Source: Cyanobacterium aponinum PCC 10605 (GTDB taxonomy: Bacteria > Cyanobacteriota > Cyanobacteriia > Cyanobacteriales > Cyanobacteriaceae). From it: 64,000 nucleotides of DNA. The notes under the pieces were generated by a model. That model searched no databases and had not been told where the DNA came from. It saw only the letters and a program-made list of their open reading frames with translations. This document shows, piece after piece, positions 6,690 through 62,856 of the stretch (position 1 is the first letter of the stretch; every line of letters begins with the position of its first letter). Location of the stretch: positions 3,472,001 through 3,536,000 of the forward strand of contig NC_019776.1 in NCBI RefSeq assembly GCF_000317675.1. Reading direction: 5' to 3'. Made by a program: the position numbers and the translations under genes.

Positions 6690-8051
6690 ATGGTGAAAAT
6701 AGTTAAGAGGCGATCGCTCGGTGTTCAACCAGTGTACGATATAGGAGTGGAAAAAGACCATAACTTTATATTGGCAAACGGCTTAGTTGCCTCTAACTGT
6801 TTCAATAAATCTCACTCCACTGCTTATGCTTACGTTACTTATCAAACTGCTTATTTAAAAGCAAACTATCCTGTTGAATATATGTCTGCGTTGTTAACCG
6901 CAAGTAGCGATAATCAGGATAAGGTTGAAAAATATCGAGAAAATTGCCTCAAGATGGGAATTGATGTCAAACCGCCTGATATTAATTTATCTCAGAAAGA
7001 ATTTACCCCCCAAGGAGACAATATTTTATTTGGTTTTTCCGCAGTGAAAAACTTGGGAGAATCTGCCATAGATAATATTTTAGAAGTCAGAGAAGAAGCG
7101 GGAGGAAAATTTGCTAACTTTGCTGATTTTATTAGTAGAGTAAATTTAAAAACCGTTAACAAAAGAGCATTAGAAACATTAATTTATGCTGGTGCATTTG
7201 ATTGTATTCACTCTAATCGTCGGCAGTTACTAGAAGGTTTAGATTTGATGGTGAGTTGGGTTCAAAAACGCCTAAAAGAAAAAGAAACAGGGCAGTTAAA
7301 TATTTTTGAGCAAATGATGGGTAATAGCACCAATACCGCTACAGAAACCACCACAGAAATTAGTTATGAAAGCGCCCCACGGTTACCCAGAGTTGAAGAT
7401 TTTTCCCCCCAAGAAAAATTAAAATCAGAAAAAGAACATTTAGGATTTTATGTCTCAGAACATCCTTTAAAACCGTTAAAAAATAAAATTAGTATATTAT
7501 CTCCCATTAATTTAAGTGAATTATCTAGTCAAAAATCAAGACACAAAATTTGTACATTAGCAATGTTAAATACTATCAAATCCCATGTTGATAAAAATGG
7601 AAATAATATGGCTTTTCTAACCTTAGAAGATATTTCGGGTCAAGCCGATGGGGTAATTTTTGCTAGTAGTTATGAACAAATAAAAGATAATTTAGTAGAA
7701 GATACCCCTTTAATTATTTGGGGTAGGGCAGATAACAAAAATGAAAAATCCCAAATTATTGTTAATTATATGAGTAAAATTGCGGAGACAAAATTAGTTT
7801 TTATTCGTCTTTCTCCTGAAAATGCTTCCAATCCTTCTATTCAGGGTAAAATTAAGGGCATTTTGCAGGAACAATCAGGGGACAAAAATCAAGCCGTAAT
7901 TCCCACTTTTGTGGTGATAGAGGGGGCAAGGGAAAGAATTATCGTACGCTTAGGGGATGCTTATTGGGTTCAAGATGCTTATAACACTTTGGAGGCTTTA
8001 ACTAATGCGAGTTTTGATGCTTATTTACAGGGTTTTGACACTGACTCATAA
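6690..8051 (+). CDS. dnaE: DNA polymerase III alpha subunit, C half, with split-intein C fragment
   Basis: The 453-residue product starts with a 36-residue trans-splicing intein C fragment: [22 protein letters not shown], with the block-F His (DHNF) and terminal Asn36. The +1 Cys of the extein is encoded at 6798-6800 ([13 protein letters not shown]). The remaining 417 residues are the C-terminal half of DnaE, including the helix-hairpin-helix-like region and an OB-fold region. The protein must be joined to an N half encoded elsewhere to give active replicative polymerase. It resembles the Npu/Ssp DnaE-C fragment in length and motifs. Its stop is 5 bp upstream of a family-A repeat. Confidence 0.95.
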
Positions 8052-40756: not shown

Positions 40757-42268
40757 CAAAATAATGGGTCAAAAGCCTCGCCCTTTTAGGGCGACTTTAA
40801 CCAATAAAAGGCGATGAGCCTACTCCTTTAATCTTATCCTCCTGATAAAATCTCTCACTACCTCTGTTTGATTCCTCCCTGTTTGCTCACAATATAACTT
40901 GAGCTTTTTTTTCTTCTATTGTTATCGAAATCGTTAGATGAACTTTTTTATTTTGTGGGTTCATTTCTCTTTTTTTTCGCTATCATACCAATATATACGG
41001 TGTTAGTCTAACATGAAACAACGATATAACTATAGAATTTATCCTACGTCACAGCAAGAACAGTTGTTAGCTCAACTGTTTGGTTGTTGTCGTGTGGTTT
41101 ATAATGATGGGGTAGCGTTGTGTCAGCAAATCTATAAAGAAGGAGGTAAAAAACCAAGTAATAGTGAACTTCAAAAACTGTTAATCACCCAAGCCAAGAA
41201 AACTGAAAAAAGAGAATGGTTGTCAAAAGTTAGTGCAATCCCTTTGCAACAATCACTAAATGATTTTAACATCGCCTATCAGAACTTTTTTAATTCCTGT
41301 CAGGGAAAAAGAAAGGGAAAAAAAGTAAAACCGCCTAAGTTTAAGTCGAGAAAATCAAATCAATCAGCACGGTTCACTCGTGGTGGTTTTAAAGTTGGGC
41401 AACATAAAATTAAGTTGGCAAAAATAGGTAAAGTAAAAATTATCTGGTCAAGAAAATTGCCTAACCCACCATCATCGGCAACAGTGATCAAAGATTCTGC
41501 CAGTCGGTATTTTATTTCTTTTGTGGTGGAGACAATCCCTGAAAAATTGCCTGACAATGGTCAAAGTGTGGGGATTGATTTAGGAATTGAAACTTTTGCA
41601 ACTCTAAGCAATGGGCAAAAGATAAAATCTTCTAAACCATTAAAGAAATATCAAAGGAAACTGAGACGTTGCCAGAGAAATTTAAGTAGAAAGAAAAAAG
41701 GGAGTAAAAGAGATGAAAAGGCAAGAAAAAGAGTAGCTAAAGTTCACAGAAAAATAAAAGACACTCGCACTGATTTTCTACATAAATTGTCAACGGATAT
41801 TATTCGTGAAAACCAAACGATAGTATTAGAAGATTTGAACGTTAGTGCCATGGTAAAAAACCGTAAATTAAGTAAAGCAATTAGCGATCTGGGATGGGGT
41901 ACATTTAGGACTCTGCTAGAAGCAAAATCTGTAATGTATGGTAGAGAGTTTATTGTGATTGATCGGTGGATACCAACATCTCAAGTATGTTCTAATTGTG
42001 GATTTAATGGCGGTAAAAAAGAATTAAATATAAGAGAATGGACTTGCATTAATTGCGGTGTAGTGCATGATCGTGATATTAATGCAAGTAAAAATATCTT
42101 AGTCGCTGGAGGGCATTCAGAGACTTTAAACGGACGTGGAGCAGGACGTAAGACTAGCATAAAGTTAGCAGTAGGCGATGAAGCGTCAACCCACCGAGAG
42201 ATTAGATTTAAGCACTTAAGTCTATTCTAGTAGGAATCCCGTCGCCTTCAGGCACGGGAGGATGTCAA
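40757..42268 (+). mobile_element. IS200/IS605-type element with tnpB only (IS608-like ends)
   Basis: The proposed left end follows TTAC (40753-40756) and carries a TCGCCC-TTTTA-GGGCGA hairpin at 40778-40794. The right end has a bulged hairpin CCCGT-C-GCCT-TC-AGGC-ACGGG at 42238-42258, then a terminal TCAA (42265-42268). TTAC target and TCAA right end match IS608 usage. There is no tnpA, so it is non-autonomous. The insertion lies 40 bp before the hydrolase gene. The boundaries are inference. Confidence 0.7.
41013..42230 (+). CDS. tnpB: TnpB, RNA-guided nuclease-like transposon protein (element 1)
   Basis: 405 residues with the N-terminal OrfB helix-turn-helix domain, a RuvC-like nuclease and a zinc ribbon. 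The catalytic residues look intact: Asp189 (VGIDLGIETFATL), Glu273 (IVLEDLNVSAM), and Asp355 in VHDRDINASKN. Zinc Cys are 326, 329, 345 and 348. TnpB proteins cut DNA guided by an RNA made from the element's right end. The predicted omega-RNA would cover the end of the gene and the hairpin at 42238-42258, with a guide starting after 42268. Confidence 0.9.
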   Translation: MKQRYNYRIYPTSQQEQLLAQLFGCCRVVYNDGVALCQQIYKEGGKKPSNSELQKLLITQAKKTEKREWLSKVSAIPLQQSLNDFNIAYQNFFNSCQGKRKGKKVKPPKFKSRKSNQSARFTRGGFKVGQHKIKLAKIGKVKIIWSRKLPNPPSSATVIKDSASRYFISFVVETIPEKLPDNGQSVGIDLGIETFATLSNGQKIKSSKPLKKYQRKLRRCQRNLSRKKKGSKRDEKARKRVAKVHRKIKDTRTDFLHKLSTDIIRENQTIVLEDLNVSAMVKNRKLSKAISDLGWGTFRTLLEAKSVMYGREFIVIDRWIPTSQVCSNCGFNGGKKELNIREWTCINCGVVHDRDINASKNILVAGGHSETLNGRGAGRKTSIKLAVGDEASTHREIRFKHLSLF

Positions 42269-47548: not shown

Positions 47549-48926
47549 GTAAATGGCAAAAGAAGTCCCTAATCTCAGCATAGCGGATTAGCGGATGAAT
47601 TGTGCCTCGATAAAAAAATATCCGTAGGATTCGACACAAAACCAAAATCATTAGTTATAATAAATTTACTGGCAACCTAAGTTAGCAATAAACCTCAATG
47701 CACAGAGCGATAAAAGTCAGAATCTATCCCAACAAAACCCAAGCCAAGAAATTATCTCAGGTTATGGGTTGTTGTCGCTGGTGGTACAATTATGCTCTAA
47801 ACTTGTGCATTGACACTTATAAAGCTACAGGTAAGGCATTAAAGCAAGTAGCCCTTAATAAGTATCTCCCTAAGTTAAAAAAAGAGGAAGATACGGCTTG
47901 GTTAGGGGATTGTTACTCACAATGTCTGCAATCAACGACTCTTAATCTGACTAAGGCTTTCAAAAACTTCTTTGAAGGTAGAGCCAAATACCCCAGATAC
48001 AAGTCATATCAAGGAAGACAGTCTTGCCAATATCCCCAAAATGTCTCGATAGTTGATGGATGTCTCAAAATTCCCCAACTGGGCTTAGTAAAAGCAGTTA
48101 TTCATCGGATATTTGAAGGTGAGATTAAGACTGTAACAGTAAGCAAAACTCCTACTGGTAAATACTATGCAAGTATATTATTTGATACCAAACAAACATT
48201 TCCTGAAGTAACAATTACGGGAAAAGTCTGTGGTATTGACTTAGGAATCAAAGATTTTGCTATTGTTCATGATGGCAGGAAAACCAGTAAGTACGCTAAC
48301 CCTAGACACATCAAAAAACATGAAAAAAACTTAGCTCGGAAACAACAAAAATTAGCCCGTAAGAAAAAAGGCTCTAAGAATAGAGAAAAAGCTCGTAAGC
48401 TAGTTGCTAAAGTTCACGAACGCATAAGCAATGCCCGTCAAGACTTCCTACACAAACTCTCAAGAAAGATTGTGAATAACAATCAAGTGGTAGTCATTGA
48501 GCAGTTGAATATCAAGGGTATGGTTCGGAATCACAACTTAGCGAAAGCAATATCTGATGTCGGTTGGGGAACATTGATCAATTTCCTAGACTATAAACTC
48601 AAGCAAAAAGGTGGGTTATTAGTAGAGATAGACAGATGGTTTCCTAGCTCTAAAACTTGCTCTCATTGTCATTATCAAATGTCTGAAATGCCATTAGAGA
48701 TAAGAGAATGGACTTGTCCAAGTTGTGGTAGTCATCATGATAGAGATGAGAACGCAAGTAAAAATATTAGAGCAGAAGGCATCAGAAAAATACAGACGGA
48801 TGGAACAGCCGTCTCTGCATCTGGAGGATCGGTAAGACCAAAAGGCGGACGTAAATCCGTTTTGAGGCACGAACCTGTGAAAGATGAAGCTCCCGACTCA
48901 GCCATAGCGGTCGGGTAGTAGTTCAC
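47549..48926 (+). mobile_element. Second IS200/IS605-type element with tnpB only
   Basis: A left-end hairpin TAATC-(TCAGCATAGCG)-GATTA lies at 47570-47590 and a right-end hairpin CCCGAC-(TCAGCCATAGCG)-GTCGGG at 48892-48915. The two loops are nearly identical though the stems differ. Proposed target TTTAAC (47543-47548) and a right end near TTCAC (48922-48926). The exact ends are uncertain. There is no tnpA gene. It inserted between der and pdxA, 30 bp upstream of the latter's start. Confidence 0.6.
47698..48918 (+). CDS. tnpB: TnpB, RNA-guided nuclease-like transposon protein (element 2)
   Basis: 406 residues, distantly related to the first TnpB. Catalytic residues look intact: Asp181 ([13 protein letters not shown]), Glu268 ([12 protein letters not shown]), and Asp350 in [11 protein letters not shown]. 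Zinc Cys are 321, 324, 340 and 343. The last ~25 codons overlap the right-end hairpin, as expected if the omega-RNA is produced from the 3' end of the gene. The body differs from element 1 (different N-terminus, ends and target), so these are separate families. Confidence 0.9.
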
Positions 48927-50224: not shown

Positions 50225-52504
50225 ATGAAAGCAGAAATCAGACCCAGAAAATTTAATTCTAGCCATATTCAACAGGCTTCTGCTGTAAATTTAGCTGATC
50301 ATTTTCATAATCGTTTATCTGTATTTGGTATAACGATAGATGATTCAAGTACCGTTGACCGAGATGATGGTATCTGGTTGATAGAATTAAGTAACGGTAA
50401 TTTCGAGCTTCAAGTGAGTATTACTGATGTTTCTACCGTAATCCCTAAACATTCCCCCATTGATAAAGAAGCAGAGGAAAGAGTAATAACTCTTTATCAT
50501 ACCAATCCTTCAACCCCCATGTTACCTAATCATCTTAGTACTAATTTAGGTTCATTGGAAGAAGAGCAAAGACGGTTAGCTTTAACTATTTTTTTTCAAA
50601 TTGATAGTAGTGGAAACGTTAATAATTTTACTATTAAAGAGACTATTTTTACTAATAAAAAAGCCTTTAGTTATGAAGAAGTAGAAAAAATTTTAGCAAA
50701 TCCTCAAGATATTCCTGAACATAAATTATTATTAAAAATGCAACAATTAGCTCATTTATTTGCTCAAAAAAGAGTGGGTAAATCGGGAATATTAACAACG
50801 GAAGGTTATGTTGATGAAGACGGCAATTTAATTAAAGAAAATGTTAATACCCATCAATTAATTGCTGAGTTTATGATTCTAACTAATGCAACAGTTGGTA
50901 ATTTTTTGGCAGAGAATAATCTACCAGCAATTTATCGTACTCAGGATGTTGGTACAACGGATTTTGATTTTGTGATTAAAACGATGGGGCATTGTTTAGT
51001 TCCTGCTGTTTATGAGTCTTGGGCAAAACCCCATGTTGGCTTAGGTTTGATGGCTTACGCTCATTTTACCAGTCCTTTAAGAAGATTTGTTGATTTAGTT
51101 AATCATCGCATTGTTAAAAATTTTCTTCAGCAAAAATCTCATCCTTATTCTATTCAAGAATTAAATACAATTTGTGATCATGTTAATGAGTTTACCGAAA
51201 AATTTAAGTGCGATCGAGCTAATTATTTAAAGCAAAAAAGAAAAGATGAATTAGAAGAAAAATATAGTCATTTAGAGCAAGTTAATATTGATAAATTATC
51301 TTCAGAAGAATTATCAGAATTAATTCAATATACTGCGAAAAATAATCGTTTAAAAGACATAATTTTATCTCTGGAAAAACGAAAACAAGATTTACAACCA
51401 AAAGATTTTTATCATATTTGGTTTGTCGGCAAAATTCAACATTTTTTAGAAGACGAAGAAATAGACACTATTTCCGTTTTAAGAATTAAATGCCAACTAG
51501 ACAACTCTATGGTAGATTATAAGTCTCACTACTGCCCCATAAGACAAAAAAACTTTGCCTTCTGTTATCTTGATGGTAAAACAACCCTCAATCCAGAAGA
51601 AGATAGCAAAAAAAATAAAGCTCGACAGAAAGCGGCGTTGGCAACAATTAAATCATATTTAAAAGGAGAATTAACATCACAACCGAATAATTTTCCCTCT
51701 GCTACTTTTGAAGATTTTATCAAAGAACAATCATTGCAAAAACTAGAAAATGATATTGATTTAACTAACTTAGATGACAAGCTGTTTAGCCAACTCATAG
51801 ACTATTGTCTCAAAAATCAGTTTGAAGAAAAAATTATCGAAGAAATAGAAAACAGAATTAATCGTCTGAGTGTTAAAGATTTATATAAAATTTGGTTTGA
51901 AGGAAAAATAAATAAATTTTTCAACTTTAGCAACCTAGACTTTACCTCAGTAGTTTTAATTTATTGTCAAATAAATAATTACTCCATTAAATATAGAATA
52001 GAATATAATCCTTCTGAAGAAGTTTATTCTGCCCTTTGTTGTATCAATAATTTAATTTCCCCAGAAATTTCAGTGGATGCAAAAAAAAGTAGGGCAAAAC
52101 AAAAAGCATCTATGGCGTATATTCAGGCTTACGTTAACAATACTTTAATTACCGCTCCTGATATTTTTGCAGATGAAAATGAAGATAATTATCCTGAGAA
52201 AAATGCTGATCAAGATGATGATATTAACCCTAAAAAAGATATTGTTAATAGTATCGATAATAACGAGGAAAAACCAACAAAATTAAATGTTGATTGGGTA
52301 TCTAAACTTCATTATCTTTGTCAGGCAAATCATTGGAAATCCCCAGAATATATATTTGATAATTTTGGTACTTTTTTTTCTTGTATAGTCGTTTTGTCTG
52401 TGGAAAACAAAGTCTTAAAATCTAAAGGTTATGGTAAAAGCAAAAAGGATGCAAAACAATCAGCTTCTCAGGTGTTTATGATTCAACATCAATTAGAAAC
52501 TTAG
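50225..52504 (+). CDS. RNB-family exoribonuclease with C-terminal dsRNA-binding modules
   Basis: 759 residues. The RNB catalytic domain (about 10-345) has all four metal Asp of RNase II (Asp39, Asp45, Asp47, Asp48 in ITIDDSSTVDRDDG) and the YAHFTSPLRRFVDLVNHR motif. Neither cold-shock domains at the front nor an S1 domain at the end are present. Instead there are two ~120-residue tandem repeats, each ending in a KxRAKQKA-type helix (KARQKAALATIKSYL; RAKQKASMAYIQAYV), and a canonical dsRBD at about 688-759 (KSKGYGKSKKDAKQSASQVF). It probably degrades structured RNA 3' to 5'. Monocistronic. Confidence 0.85.
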   Translation: MKAEIRPRKFNSSHIQQASAVNLADHFHNRLSVFGITIDDSSTVDRDDGIWLIELSNGNFELQVSITDVSTVIPKHSPIDKEAEERVITLYHTNPSTPMLPNHLSTNLGSLEEEQRRLALTIFFQIDSSGNVNNFTIKETIFTNKKAFSYEEVEKILANPQDIPEHKLLLKMQQLAHLFAQKRVGKSGILTTEGYVDEDGNLIKENVNTHQLIAEFMILTNATVGNFLAENNLPAIYRTQDVGTTDFDFVIKTMGHCLVPAVYESWAKPHVGLGLMAYAHFTSPLRRFVDLVNHRIVKNFLQQKSHPYSIQELNTICDHVNEFTEKFKCDRANYLKQKRKDELEEKYSHLEQVNIDKLSSEELSELIQYTAKNNRLKDIILSLEKRKQDLQPKDFYHIWFVGKIQHFLEDEEIDTISVLRIKCQLDNSMVDYKSHYCPIRQKNFAFCYLDGKTTLNPEEDSKKNKARQKAALATIKSYLKGELTSQPNNFPSATFEDFIKEQSLQKLENDIDLTNLDDKLFSQLIDYCLKNQFEEKIIEEIENRINRLSVKDLYKIWFEGKINKFFNFSNLDFTSVVLIYCQINNYSIKYRIEYNPSEEVYSALCCINNLISPEISVDAKKSRAKQKASMAYIQAYVNNTLITAPDIFADENEDNYPEKNADQDDDINPKKDIVNSIDNNEEKPTKLNVDWVSKLHYLCQANHWKSPEYIFDNFGTFFSCIVVLSVENKVLKSKGYGKSKKDAKQSASQVFMIQHQLET

Positions 52505-59130: not shown

Positions 59131-60247
59131 ATGAAAATATTTACAAAAATAAAGCATTATCAGCAAAAATTTTTCCTGATTAGTATTTTAATTAGTTTAT
59201 TTACCTGTCTATTTTCAAAATCTGCTGAAAGTGCAGAAAAAATTAATTTTGTTTATGGTTCATTATCTTTTTCTGTAGCTATAGAATCTTTAGAAACTTT
59301 TGCTAAAACAGGAGAATTAAAAGAAGACTTAGAGCCTTATGCTTCTCAATTAGATCAAAAAACTCTCTTTGAGGTTAGACTATTTTTAAATAAATCTTTT
59401 CAATTTCCTCAAGCAAGTTTATATAGAATAAGTCGTACCTCCTTAGCCCAAGATTTAATCAAACAATTAGGAAAAGTAATTTCTTCTCATAGCCAAAGAA
59501 ACGGTTTTTATGCCATAAGAGGTGCAATTTTAACGACAGCAGGAAATCAAGAATCATGGAATTTAATTGATGTTTTAAAAACTTTTCCTACTCAGGAAGT
59601 TTACGTTAATTTAGAGTTATTAGCACAATTAAAAGATGAAATATTTGCCTATCAAAGTTACGGTGATGCAGTAACTAAAGCCATTGATAATGTAGCAGAA
59701 AAAAATAGTCACAATATCCCTCTGTCTCAACTAGATAATTTACCCGATTTAGCAAAAAAAGGTCAATATAATGTCATCAAAAAAACTGTTATTCTTGAAA
59801 GAAATCAAGTAAGAATGACAAAAGAAGGCTTTGTTTCTCAATATAATTTCCCTGTGGATTTTTATTTACCTGATGACGCTACCCATACTTTTCCTCTAGT
59901 TTTAATATCTCATGGTTTTGGTTCTGTTAGAGAAAATTTTACCTCTCTTGCTCAACATTTAGCTTCCTATGGTTTTATTGTTGCTATACCTCAACATATT
60001 GGTAGCGATTTACAATATCGTCAAGAACTATTAAAAGGGACATTAAGTAGTGCATTAAGTCCGATGGAATACTTAGCTCGTCCTGCTGACTTAAGTTATA
60101 TTATTGATTACTTAGAGTCTTTTCAGGAAGATAATACTTTATGGCAAAAAAGGGCTAATCTTTCCCAGATAGGAGTTATATCAAATCCGCTTAATTGCAC
60201 ATGGTATAATCAAGAGGATGTATATTTGTTGTCGTAGATTTTGACCA

Positions 60248-61302
60248 ATGCCTTCAAGAATCAAAATTGAACCCCATTTAAGTTTACAAGAATTAGAACA
60301 AGGGTATCGAAAAGCCAAACAAGGGATTGAAAAAATTCACTACCAAGTGATTTGGTTATTAGCACAAGGGAAACGAACCTCTTATGTTTCCCACGTTACA
60401 GGATATAGCTTAAGTTGGATTTACGAACTTGTTCGTAGTTATAATCGTTCGGGTGCAAAAATGTTGGGGGATCAAAGACAACATAATCGGGGTAGAAAAC
60501 CGTTATTAGACGATCAACAATTAGCTCTGCTATATCAAAGATTACAATCACCCCCCGATGATCAAGGACTTTGGAATGGTGTCAAAGTCGCAAAATGGCT
60601 CACTCAACTTCTAGATCGTACTATTTCTCCTCAAAGAGGATGGGAATATCTTAAAGGATTAGAATATCGTCTCCGATGTCCTCGTCCAAATCATCAAAAT
60701 TCTAGCTGCCTTGAACAAAATGAATGGAAAAATCAACTAGCAGAAAAAAAAAAAAGATTCAACAAGAATATCCCGACGCGGACGTTCAAGTGTGGGCTGA
60801 GGATGAGCATCGTTTAGGACTCAAACCAGTATTGAGAAGAGTATGGGTAGAAAAAGGTTATCAACCGATAGCTACGGTCAATTGGCGTTTTCAATGGTTG
60901 TGGTTATATGGCTTTGTGGAACCAAATACAGGAGAGACATATTGGTGGCTACTACCATATGTAAATACTGAATTGTTTAATCGAGTCTTAAAAGATTTTG
61001 CACAGCACTATGAAATAGGTAAAAACAAAAGGGTGATTTTAGCAATGGATCAAGCTGGTTGGCATCCGATTAAAGAAACGACGGAAATACCAGAGGGAAT
61101 CCACGTTATGCTGATGCCTTCTCACTCTCCAGAATTACAACCGGCAGAACGTTTGTGGCCATTAATAAATGAGGCCATCGCTAATAGGACATTTAAAAAT
61201 TTAGAAGAGTTAGAAGAGGTAGTTATTAGTAGATGCAAAAAAATTATGGAAGAAAAAGAAATAGTTAAAGGAATAGCCAATTTTTATTGGTGGCCTAATT
61301 AA
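60248..61302 (+). CDS. IS630-family transposase, two frames joined by likely -1 frameshift
   Basis: Frame 1 (60248-60817) has a helix-turn-helix region (LAQGKRTSYVSHVTGYSLSW) and ends beyond an A-run. Frame 2 (to 61302) carries the DDE catalytic core: AEDEHRLG (first Asp), AMDQAGWH (second Asp), LQPAERLWP (Glu). A run of 12 A (60744-60755) joins them; a -1 shift gives the fused KKKKIQQEYPDADVQVWAEDEHRLG sequence typical of the family. Fused length is about 350 residues, as usual. It may be expressed by programmed slippage rather than being mutated. Confidence 0.85.
60744..60755 (+). promoter_or_regulatory. Poly-A slippage site for transposase frameshift
   Basis: Twelve consecutive A residues in the overlap of the two transposase frames; ribosomal -1 slippage or transcriptional slippage here would join them. 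Confidence 0.6.
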
Positions 61303-62856
61303 TATCTTTTAGTGTGGCTAATTAAACGGATTTGATATTATAGGAGATTCACTAGGAGGAACAACAGCACTACAAATTGCCGGTGCACCGTTGAATATAA
61401 ATCGTTTACAAACAGAATGTAGTTCAGACAAAGTAATTATAAACATCGCCCTTATTCTCCAGTGTCAAGCGAGTTATTTACCTCCTACCCAATATCAAGT
61501 CGCTGATTCTCGTGTTAAGGCAGTAATTGCTACTCACCCTCTGGTAAGTAGTATTTTTGCATCAGAAGGGTTGAGTAAAATTAAAATTCCAACTATGATT
61601 ACCGCAGGAAGTCAAGACATAATTACTCCTTTTGTGATTGAGCAAATACACCCTTTTTTATGGTTACAAAATATACCTAAATATTTAATTTTTTTCCAAC
61701 CCGGTACTCATTTTAGTTCAACACAACCTTCTCCTGAATTTACTTTAGATAGTTTACCAGAGTTTTTATTAGGAAAAAATAGAAATATAAGCAGTGAATA
61801 TTTTCGAGGTATTGCGGTTGCTTTTTTAGAAGTTTATTTAAAAAATAATCAGGATTATTTAGTTTATTTAAGCTCAGATTATGGCAAATTTAGAGAAAAT
61901 AATTCTTTGCAAGTAAAACAAACTAATCAATTAAGTGTCAATGATTTGAAAGATGCTTATGGAGGGGATTTACCTTTTGCCATAGAAACATCTTTAGTGG
62001 TTACTCCTAGTTGGGAAAATCAAAATTTATCTATTCTTGAAGAGATAAAAAAAACAGGAGTTTTAAAAATTGCTTATCCTCAAAATAATGAGCCTTTAGG
62101 ATATATAAATCAAGATGGTGAATGGAGCGGTTTTTGTTCTTTTTTAGGACATAGTTTAGCTGACTATTTAGAATCAAATTTTGACTTTGATTTTGAAATA
62201 AAATTGGTATCTATTCCTTCTGATTCAGATAATCTCTTTAATTTAATTACTACTAATCAAGTTGATCTTGAATGTGGTCAAATAATTTCTAAAAATATAG
62301 ATAAGATAGTATTTTCTATTCCTTTTATGGTAACAGGAAATCAGTTTTTACTACCCCAGGGGGATACTCAAAATTTTAATCTTAGTAAGTTAAATAGTTT
62401 AAATATTGGCAGTATATATAATATTGCTAATGAAAAGTTTTTGGATGAAAACTATCCTCAAGCATCAAAGGTTTACTATAACAGTTTTGAAAATGTATTA
62501 ACTGATTTGGAAAATAATAAAATTGATGTTTTTTTAGGAAATAGCTTACTATTAAATAGTAAAATTAGTGAGATTAGTAATCAGAATAAATATAAAATAA
62601 ATCCTAAATTTATCTTAAATTGTGATTATTACGGTTTGTCATTACCTAGTTTTGATTCTCAATGGATTGATATTATTAATGGTTTTTTGACAAAAAATAC
62701 TTTATCTCAAAATTACTTCAATCAAGAAGCTAACAGTCTTTTATTAGAGCAGTTAAATTACTGTTTAAATTTTCAAAAAGACCCTTGATTTTCTTCGAAT
62801 AGAATATATATAAATCAAGAATGGTATTTAAGTGTTTAATAAAATTTAACAATACA

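Follow-up and report, generated by a model that had tools for sequence, protein, structure and literature searches.

A predicted RNB exoribonuclease with three C-terminal dsRBD-type modules in Cyanobacterium aponinum PCC 10605

Cyanobacterial genomes encode two or three proteins of the RNB family, and an RNase R-like member among them is unproven according to a 2022 review (PMC10989914). The Zam proteins of this family have no active site (PMC9145284). The behaviour of RNB enzymes towards duplex RNA has been linked to the tri-helix wedge, as Dis3L2 without its wedge can no longer degrade dsRNA but still degrades ssRNA (PMC10023572), and a review extends the importance of this element to RNase R (PMC12320835). 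Before a duplex, the RNase II of Synechocystis stalls at 4 nt and that of E. coli at 7 nt (PMC3293843); the authors of that study attribute the behaviour of the Synechocystis enzyme to a wider gap between CSD1 and S1, and the difference would agree with a less obstructed channel mouth. The length of the wedge alone does not set specificity, since the wedge region of E. coli RNase II is full-length and the enzyme cannot degrade duplexes. In D. radiodurans DrII, which does without cold-shock domains (CSDs), the RNA-binding surface is open and has room for pre-tRNA (PMC5758563). No account of an RNB enzyme that carries dsRBDs turned up in the open-licence literature, and mentions in paywalled or unpublished sources are possible.

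The gene described here lies in a 64,000-nucleotide stretch of the Cyanobacterium aponinum PCC 10605 genome (NC_019776.1, positions 3,472,001 to 3,536,000; hereafter the window, whose own numbering is used for all coordinates given without a contig name). It is an intact reading frame of 759 codons on the forward strand (50225-52504), with a start position that agrees with those of close homologues, and we do not regard it as a chance ORF because it is both intact and conserved in 15/15 genomes of the window's family. The 759-aa product begins with about 30 residues that form two short helices in the model, followed by an RNB catalytic domain at residues about 30-322 (50312-51190), and three helix/dsRBD modules fill the C-terminus. 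Pfam recovered the RNB domain in two pieces (PF00773, 1.2e-62, 212.6 bits against a curated cut-off of 29.3), and VIA-align superposed it on B. subtilis RNase R (8cdu_C; Z 37.5, rmsd 2.4, 320 residues). A sequence-only reading of this locus had pointed to Asp39/45/47/48 and an HFTSPLRR motif, and both were confirmed: the aspartates (50339-50368) align to D201, D207, D209, and D210 of E. coli RNase II, and the motif occupies residues 280-287 (51062-51085) and contains R286, the counterpart in the alignment of the catalytic arginine R500. Y91 and Y150 align to Y253 and Y313 of the same enzyme, and D39, D45, D47, D48, Y91, Y150, and R286 are invariant among 22 homologues. The mapping onto RNase II is confined to the aspartates, Y91, Y150, E215, and R286; among the RNase II residues F358, E390, and E542, which we also tried to place, F358 falls opposite a gap and E390 is ambiguous by one residue. 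From these residues, RNB catalysis by the window protein is strongly expected. The cold-shock and S1 domains had been read as absent, which agrees with our Pfam search, where no CSD or S1 model was among the matches of the protein at E<=1.

The host genome encodes three RNB proteins, and we compared the active sites of the other two. A 681-aa protein (L002) resembles RNase II and carries a single conservative replacement among the four aspartates, Glu for Asp at D207, and a 749-aa protein (L001) carries E/E/E/T at the four catalytic Asp positions and Q at the catalytic Arg. The latter is Zam-like, its residues matching the published description of Zam (PMC9145284). Judged by sequence, the window protein is the host's intact-active-site RNB protein besides RNase II. 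A third RNB protein, apparently built for duplex RNA, is thereby defined for this cyanobacterial family, and the question of an RNase R-like member raised by the review (PMC10989914) becomes directly testable.

The same domain had been described as a complete RNB core, which holds for the catalytic residues and fails for the tri-helix wedge. The spacer between R238 and H270 (residues 239-269, 50939-51031) is 31 residues long in the window protein, against 69-70 residues in E. coli RNase II and RNase R, so that it does not amount to the full wedge of RNase R and Dis3L2, and DSSP assigned a single 8-residue helix to the region in the model (247-254). All five three-module relatives tested share the length of 31 residues. 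Elsewhere the spacer has 42-55 residues in two-module homologues, an intermediate 41 in most cyanobacterial RNase II proteins, and 27 in some distant relatives from the same phylum. This reduction argues for trimming up to a duplex and against degrading through it.

The C-terminal part had been read as two tandem repeats of about 120 residues, each with a dsRBD-like last helix, ahead of one canonical dsRBD. The repeats are real, with 34% mutual identity (E 3e-28) between the stretches submitted (351-492 and 506-668), but each is about 135 residues long and starts with a three-helix bundle, and the mention of a last helix was an understatement, as the models place a complete dsRBD fold in the second half of each. 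Module 1 (residues 352-486, 51278-51682) and module 2 (residues 508-642, 51746-52150), a further copy of the same type, continue in the AlphaFold2 model from the three-helix bundle into a helix, three strands of which the last is short, and a long final helix, which gives their divergent dsRBDs the alpha-beta-beta-beta-alpha fold by predicted structure. The full-length model was built with 22 aligned sequences and has a mean pLDDT of 87, with a pTM of 0.58 that makes the relative placement of the domains unsure. Module 1 modelled alone reached a pLDDT of 96.8, and the same order of elements in module 2 was read from the full model. In the structure comparison, all 50 listed matches of the second half of module 1 were dsRBDs, the best of those listed being Staufen dsRBD5 (VIA-align Z 10.6, rmsd 1.8, 68 residues), and Foldseek also returned the dsRBD family for this module with weak E-values of 0.05 and up. 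At the profile level, hhalign aligned the module with this family's dsRBDs across 69 columns at 95.8% probability, and when the module's profile was searched against PDB sequences the matches were mostly dsRBD proteins (best E 0.0006). Both modules fall below the Pfam PF00035 cut-off, and residues 691-749 are the sole dsrm stretch reported. We also looked for a known fold in the three-helix bundle that opens each repeat; nearly all listed matches covered the dsRBD half only, and we do not claim that the bundle is new.

The third module (residues 689-759, 52289-52501) follows an acidic flexible linker (residues 643-688, 52151-52288) that has pLDDT values under 50 at 650-687 and 14 D/E in 46 residues. 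It is the canonical C-terminal dsRBD that had been anticipated: Pfam assigned dsrm to residues 691-749 (PF00035, 2.1e-7, 31.8 bits against a cut-off of 23), residues 691-758 repeat the fold pattern of the other modules with three full strands in the AlphaFold2 model, and VIA-align superposed the module on DCL3 (7vg2_A; Z 12.4, rmsd 1.2, 70 residues). The second repeat (506-668) weakly matches this dsRBD as well (E 0.007). Domain search and structure prediction of the C-terminus, which had been named as the way to check the sequence-only reading, returned dsRBD folds in three modules rather than some other fold. The models support an arrangement in which three dsRBD-fold modules would stand where the CSD and S1 domains would be on an RNB nuclease with a complete active site.

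Within the third module, K740 and K741 of the KKxAK motif (residues 740-744) are invariant among the 22 homologues, from which duplex binding by this module is likely. The counterparts of the motif in modules 1 and 2 are KNKAR and KSRAK, and we are less sure that these modules bind duplex because the second lysine is replaced in both. The same replacement is what one would look for if modules 1 and 2 were protein-protein or dimerisation dsRBDs that, instead of seeking free duplex, bring the enzyme to RNase E, RNase III, the ribosome, or some other partner. The best structural matches of module 1 include dsRBDs of Staufen, TRBP, and Loquacious that bind partners. We consider such recruitment very improbable, as the third dsRBD retains its invariant KKxAK motif and several basic residues are kept where the last helix begins in modules 1 and 2.

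On balance, we think it marginally probable that the window protein is a duplex-anchored 3'-5' hydrolytic exoribonuclease that trims 3' tails to the duplex and then stops. The three dsRBD modules would hold the duplex portion of an RNA, the acidic linker would give the last dsRBD its reach, and the RNB domain would digest the 3' single strand of the held molecule. With no CSD/S1 collar and a reduced wedge, the channel mouth would be open to nearby duplex and ill-suited to splitting it, and because of these two features 3' tails are expected to be trimmed to the duplex, or very close to it, before the enzyme halts. Structured RNAs would be likely substrates at their 3' ends, as would RNase III products and paired sense and antisense RNAs. 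We infer the nuclease activity, the RNA binding, the stop at the duplex, and the substrates alike, and the proposal as a whole is made less certain by the unsure domain placement (pTM 0.58) and by the divergent dsRBDs of modules 1 and 2, which may not bind RNA. The sequence-only reading had proposed that duplex would be targeted by a route other than that of RNase R, and this would fit the modelled anatomy.

The protein might instead be the RNase R equivalent of these cyanobacteria, its dsRBDs loading structured RNA and its RNB domain degrading completely through the duplex. No RNase R-type activity is known in cyanobacteria, and the 2022 review leaves the question open (PMC10989914). The dsRBDs could substitute for the S1 domain and K/R-rich tail, the duplex-binding parts of RNase R, which can make a hybrid enzyme degrade duplex (PMC12320835), and a Haloferax RNase R whose accessory domains are rudimentary digests structured RNA at its growth temperature (PMC12320835), an observation that counts against a trimmer. 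Because of these hybrid-enzyme and Haloferax results, full degradation through the duplex is plausible, but we give it a minor chance of being correct, since the wedge of the window protein is the shortest among the RNB-dsRBD enzymes compared and Dis3L2 requires its wedge for duplexes. In addition, dsRBDs grip A-form duplex, and parting the strands is not their role. We favour a trimming enzyme over an RNase R-like unwinder because the wedge is cut from 70 residues in E. coli to 31.

Our survey of cyanobacterial genomes for this architecture showed that the three-module form is found in 15/15 genomes of the window's family (Geminocystis relatives), in each of which the C-terminal region was matched, while relatives with two modules are spread over several phyla and also sit on plasmids. 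These matches came from an alignment-based scan, and a contig scan with the single protein gave none. Among the full-length relatives are Geminocystis sp. GBBB08 and further cyanobacterial bins, and in several family genomes the match sits on megabase-scale contigs. Of 390 genomes of the class, 26 (about 7%) matched a profile of the two-module C-terminus strongly, with a patchy and often multicopy distribution, and a shorter form was found in three further genomes (frames of 471-490 aa). Many weak profile matches were limited to the canonical dsRBD part, in frames of about 230-300 aa that we take to be RNase III. Cyanobacterial carriers of the two-module form include Crocosphaera, Cyanothece, Brasilonema, Scytonema, Leptolyngbya, and Stenomitos, and those outside the phylum include Glycomyces, Phytomonospora, and a Prolixibacteraceae bin. 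Taxonomy derived from bins may be contaminated, as in one labelled Crocinitomicaceae (L050) with a Crocosphaera-like protein. Pfam found both RNB and dsrm in nearly all relatives scanned, the dsrm match being slightly under the cut-off in a Glycomyces protein (L066) and not called in a Micrarchaeota bin (L065). Some smaller RNB proteins were also seen. A 463-aa protein (L152:6437-7825) lacks a canonical dsRBD, matches the first C-terminal module weakly, and is a possible minimal form of the family, and two Gracilibacteria contigs, with TGA read as Gly, encode RNB proteins of about 510 aa whose wedge region has a short spacer (L078:5866-7410 and L081:5869-7401).

In a tree of 60 RNB domains, 37 group members fall on one side of a branch with support of 99/97, and the sampled RNase II, RNase R, and DrII-like sequences fall on the other. 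The three-module clade is monophyletic (100/100) and sits on a long stem. We considered whether it is nested inside the two-module clade, for which the position is supported at 53/45 only, the union of the two being supported. Gene order around the window's clade is variable: the downstream hisF is common only to the same-genus genome, and other neighbours in the family differ, with the sole exception of a transporter-like gene that adjoins three family copies. Because gene neighbours vary across the family, we see no functional link to pdxA or hisF, and an operon or partner relationship with either was rejected as gene order is not shared outside the genus. Two other origins were examined and set aside, namely a known defence gene, for which PADLOC gave no match among five family members, and a phage gene, for which the phage matches listed cover the RNB half only and the PHROGs match is to a generic nuclease family.

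The window contains several other features. TnpB/OrfB-like transposon genes lie at 41013-42230 and 47698-48918, the second of them two genes upstream of the RNB-dsRBD gene. At 59131-62788, an alpha/beta-hydrolase-like gene is apparently split by an IS630-type transposase frame pair (60248-61302), and the start of a frame at 6690-8051 resembles a split DnaE intein's C-terminal half, after which the frame continues as the C-terminal part of DnaE.

Plasmids are a recurrent setting for the wider family. Nine plasmids of two Acaryochloris strains carry one RNB-dsRBD gene each (L153, L154, L155, L160, L161, and L162), several of them with recA, parA/parB, or HicAB near this gene, and dsrm was found in all checked plasmid proteins from Rhodococcus, Variovorax, Pseudomonas, and Acaryochloris (n=6). 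Two-module copies lie near parA/parB on L145, L147, and pREC4, another shares contig L149 with a relaxase-like gene, and some two-module copies are broken or multicopy. At L146:3154-12241, a two-module gene is flanked by a type II restriction-modification pair and by CBASS genes identified with PADLOC (SAVED-type endonuclease effector, cyclase, E2, E1, and JAB). Free dsRBD frames were seen on two of these contigs. The small frame at L146:13266-13673 shares 88% identity across 100 residues with the C-terminal dsRBD of that contig's RNB gene (L146:6930-7229), as if it had been copied out of that gene recently, and another free frame, at L145:6215-6667, lies close to an RNB-dsRBD gene.

One explanation for these settings is that the family acts mainly in conflicts between plasmids, phages, and hosts, where it would digest one of the two partners of an RNA duplex, and that the chromosomal copy in the window has been domesticated. 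The copies on the nine Acaryochloris plasmids and on those of Rhodococcus, Variovorax, and Pseudomonas, with dsrm in the six checked, would fit this, as would the copy between restriction-modification and CBASS genes and the parA/parB genes near some others. We judge it improbable, as only one defence neighbourhood was seen, and the window's clade is present in 15/15 family genomes, on megabase-scale contigs where seen, without conserved or defence neighbours and without a PADLOC match. No plasmid or defence association was found for this clade among its 15 family genomes, and the plasmid, par, and relaxase settings of the two-module copies suggest mobility without showing a defence role. A broader proposal, which is less likely than not, is that the RNB-dsRBD enzymes form a branch of the RNase II/R family that has so far escaped description, has spread horizontally, and reads duplexes; the dsRBDs would select sense-antisense, plasmid, or phage duplex and the RNB domain would remove 3' ends. 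If true, dsRNA recognition would be paired with 3' exonucleolysis in prokaryotes, a pairing that many bacteria would carry on plasmids and next to defence genes and that a single cyanobacterial family would have fixed in its chromosome.

The sequence-only reading had left room for the architecture to be already described as common. It is undescribed in the open-licence literature that could be searched, but the architecture itself is not rare, and the annotation "RNB domain-containing ribonuclease" conceals the RNB-dsRBD branch. In this multi-phylum, plasmid-spread branch, RNB nucleases exchanged OB-fold RNA-binding domains for dsRBDs.

Several known enzymes share part of this design. Bacterial RNase III likewise joins an RNase to a C-terminal dsRBD, but its catalytic domain is that of an unrelated endonuclease, and Pfam found no RNase III domain in the window protein. 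DrII of D. radiodurans is also a compact RNB enzyme without CSDs (2r7d; Z 32.8, rmsd 2.6, 300 residues), but it has an S1 domain, a winged helix at the N-terminus that replaces the CSDs (PMC5758563), and no dsRBD, and the window protein lacks this combination of N-terminal winged helix and S1. Zam belongs to the RNB family and has a 749-aa copy in the same genome, but its active site is lost, whereas the window protein keeps all catalytic residues. Cyanobacterial RNase II (Sll1290 type) is of the same family, has a reduced wedge (41 residues), and occurs in the same host, but the 681-aa host copy has 29% identity to the window protein over the RNB domain and falls on a separate branch (99/97). 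RNase R (E. coli and B. subtilis) and Dis3L2 share the RNB fold, the catalytic Asp and Arg residues, and presumed 3'-5' hydrolysis; they have two CSDs, an S1 domain, and a full wedge, unlike the window protein, which has dsRBDs instead and a short wedge and reaches 195.4 bits with the NCBIfam RNase_R model (TIGR02063), under the equivalog cut-off of 597.85. The window protein is a variant within the RNB superfamily, in a widespread and often plasmid-borne branch.
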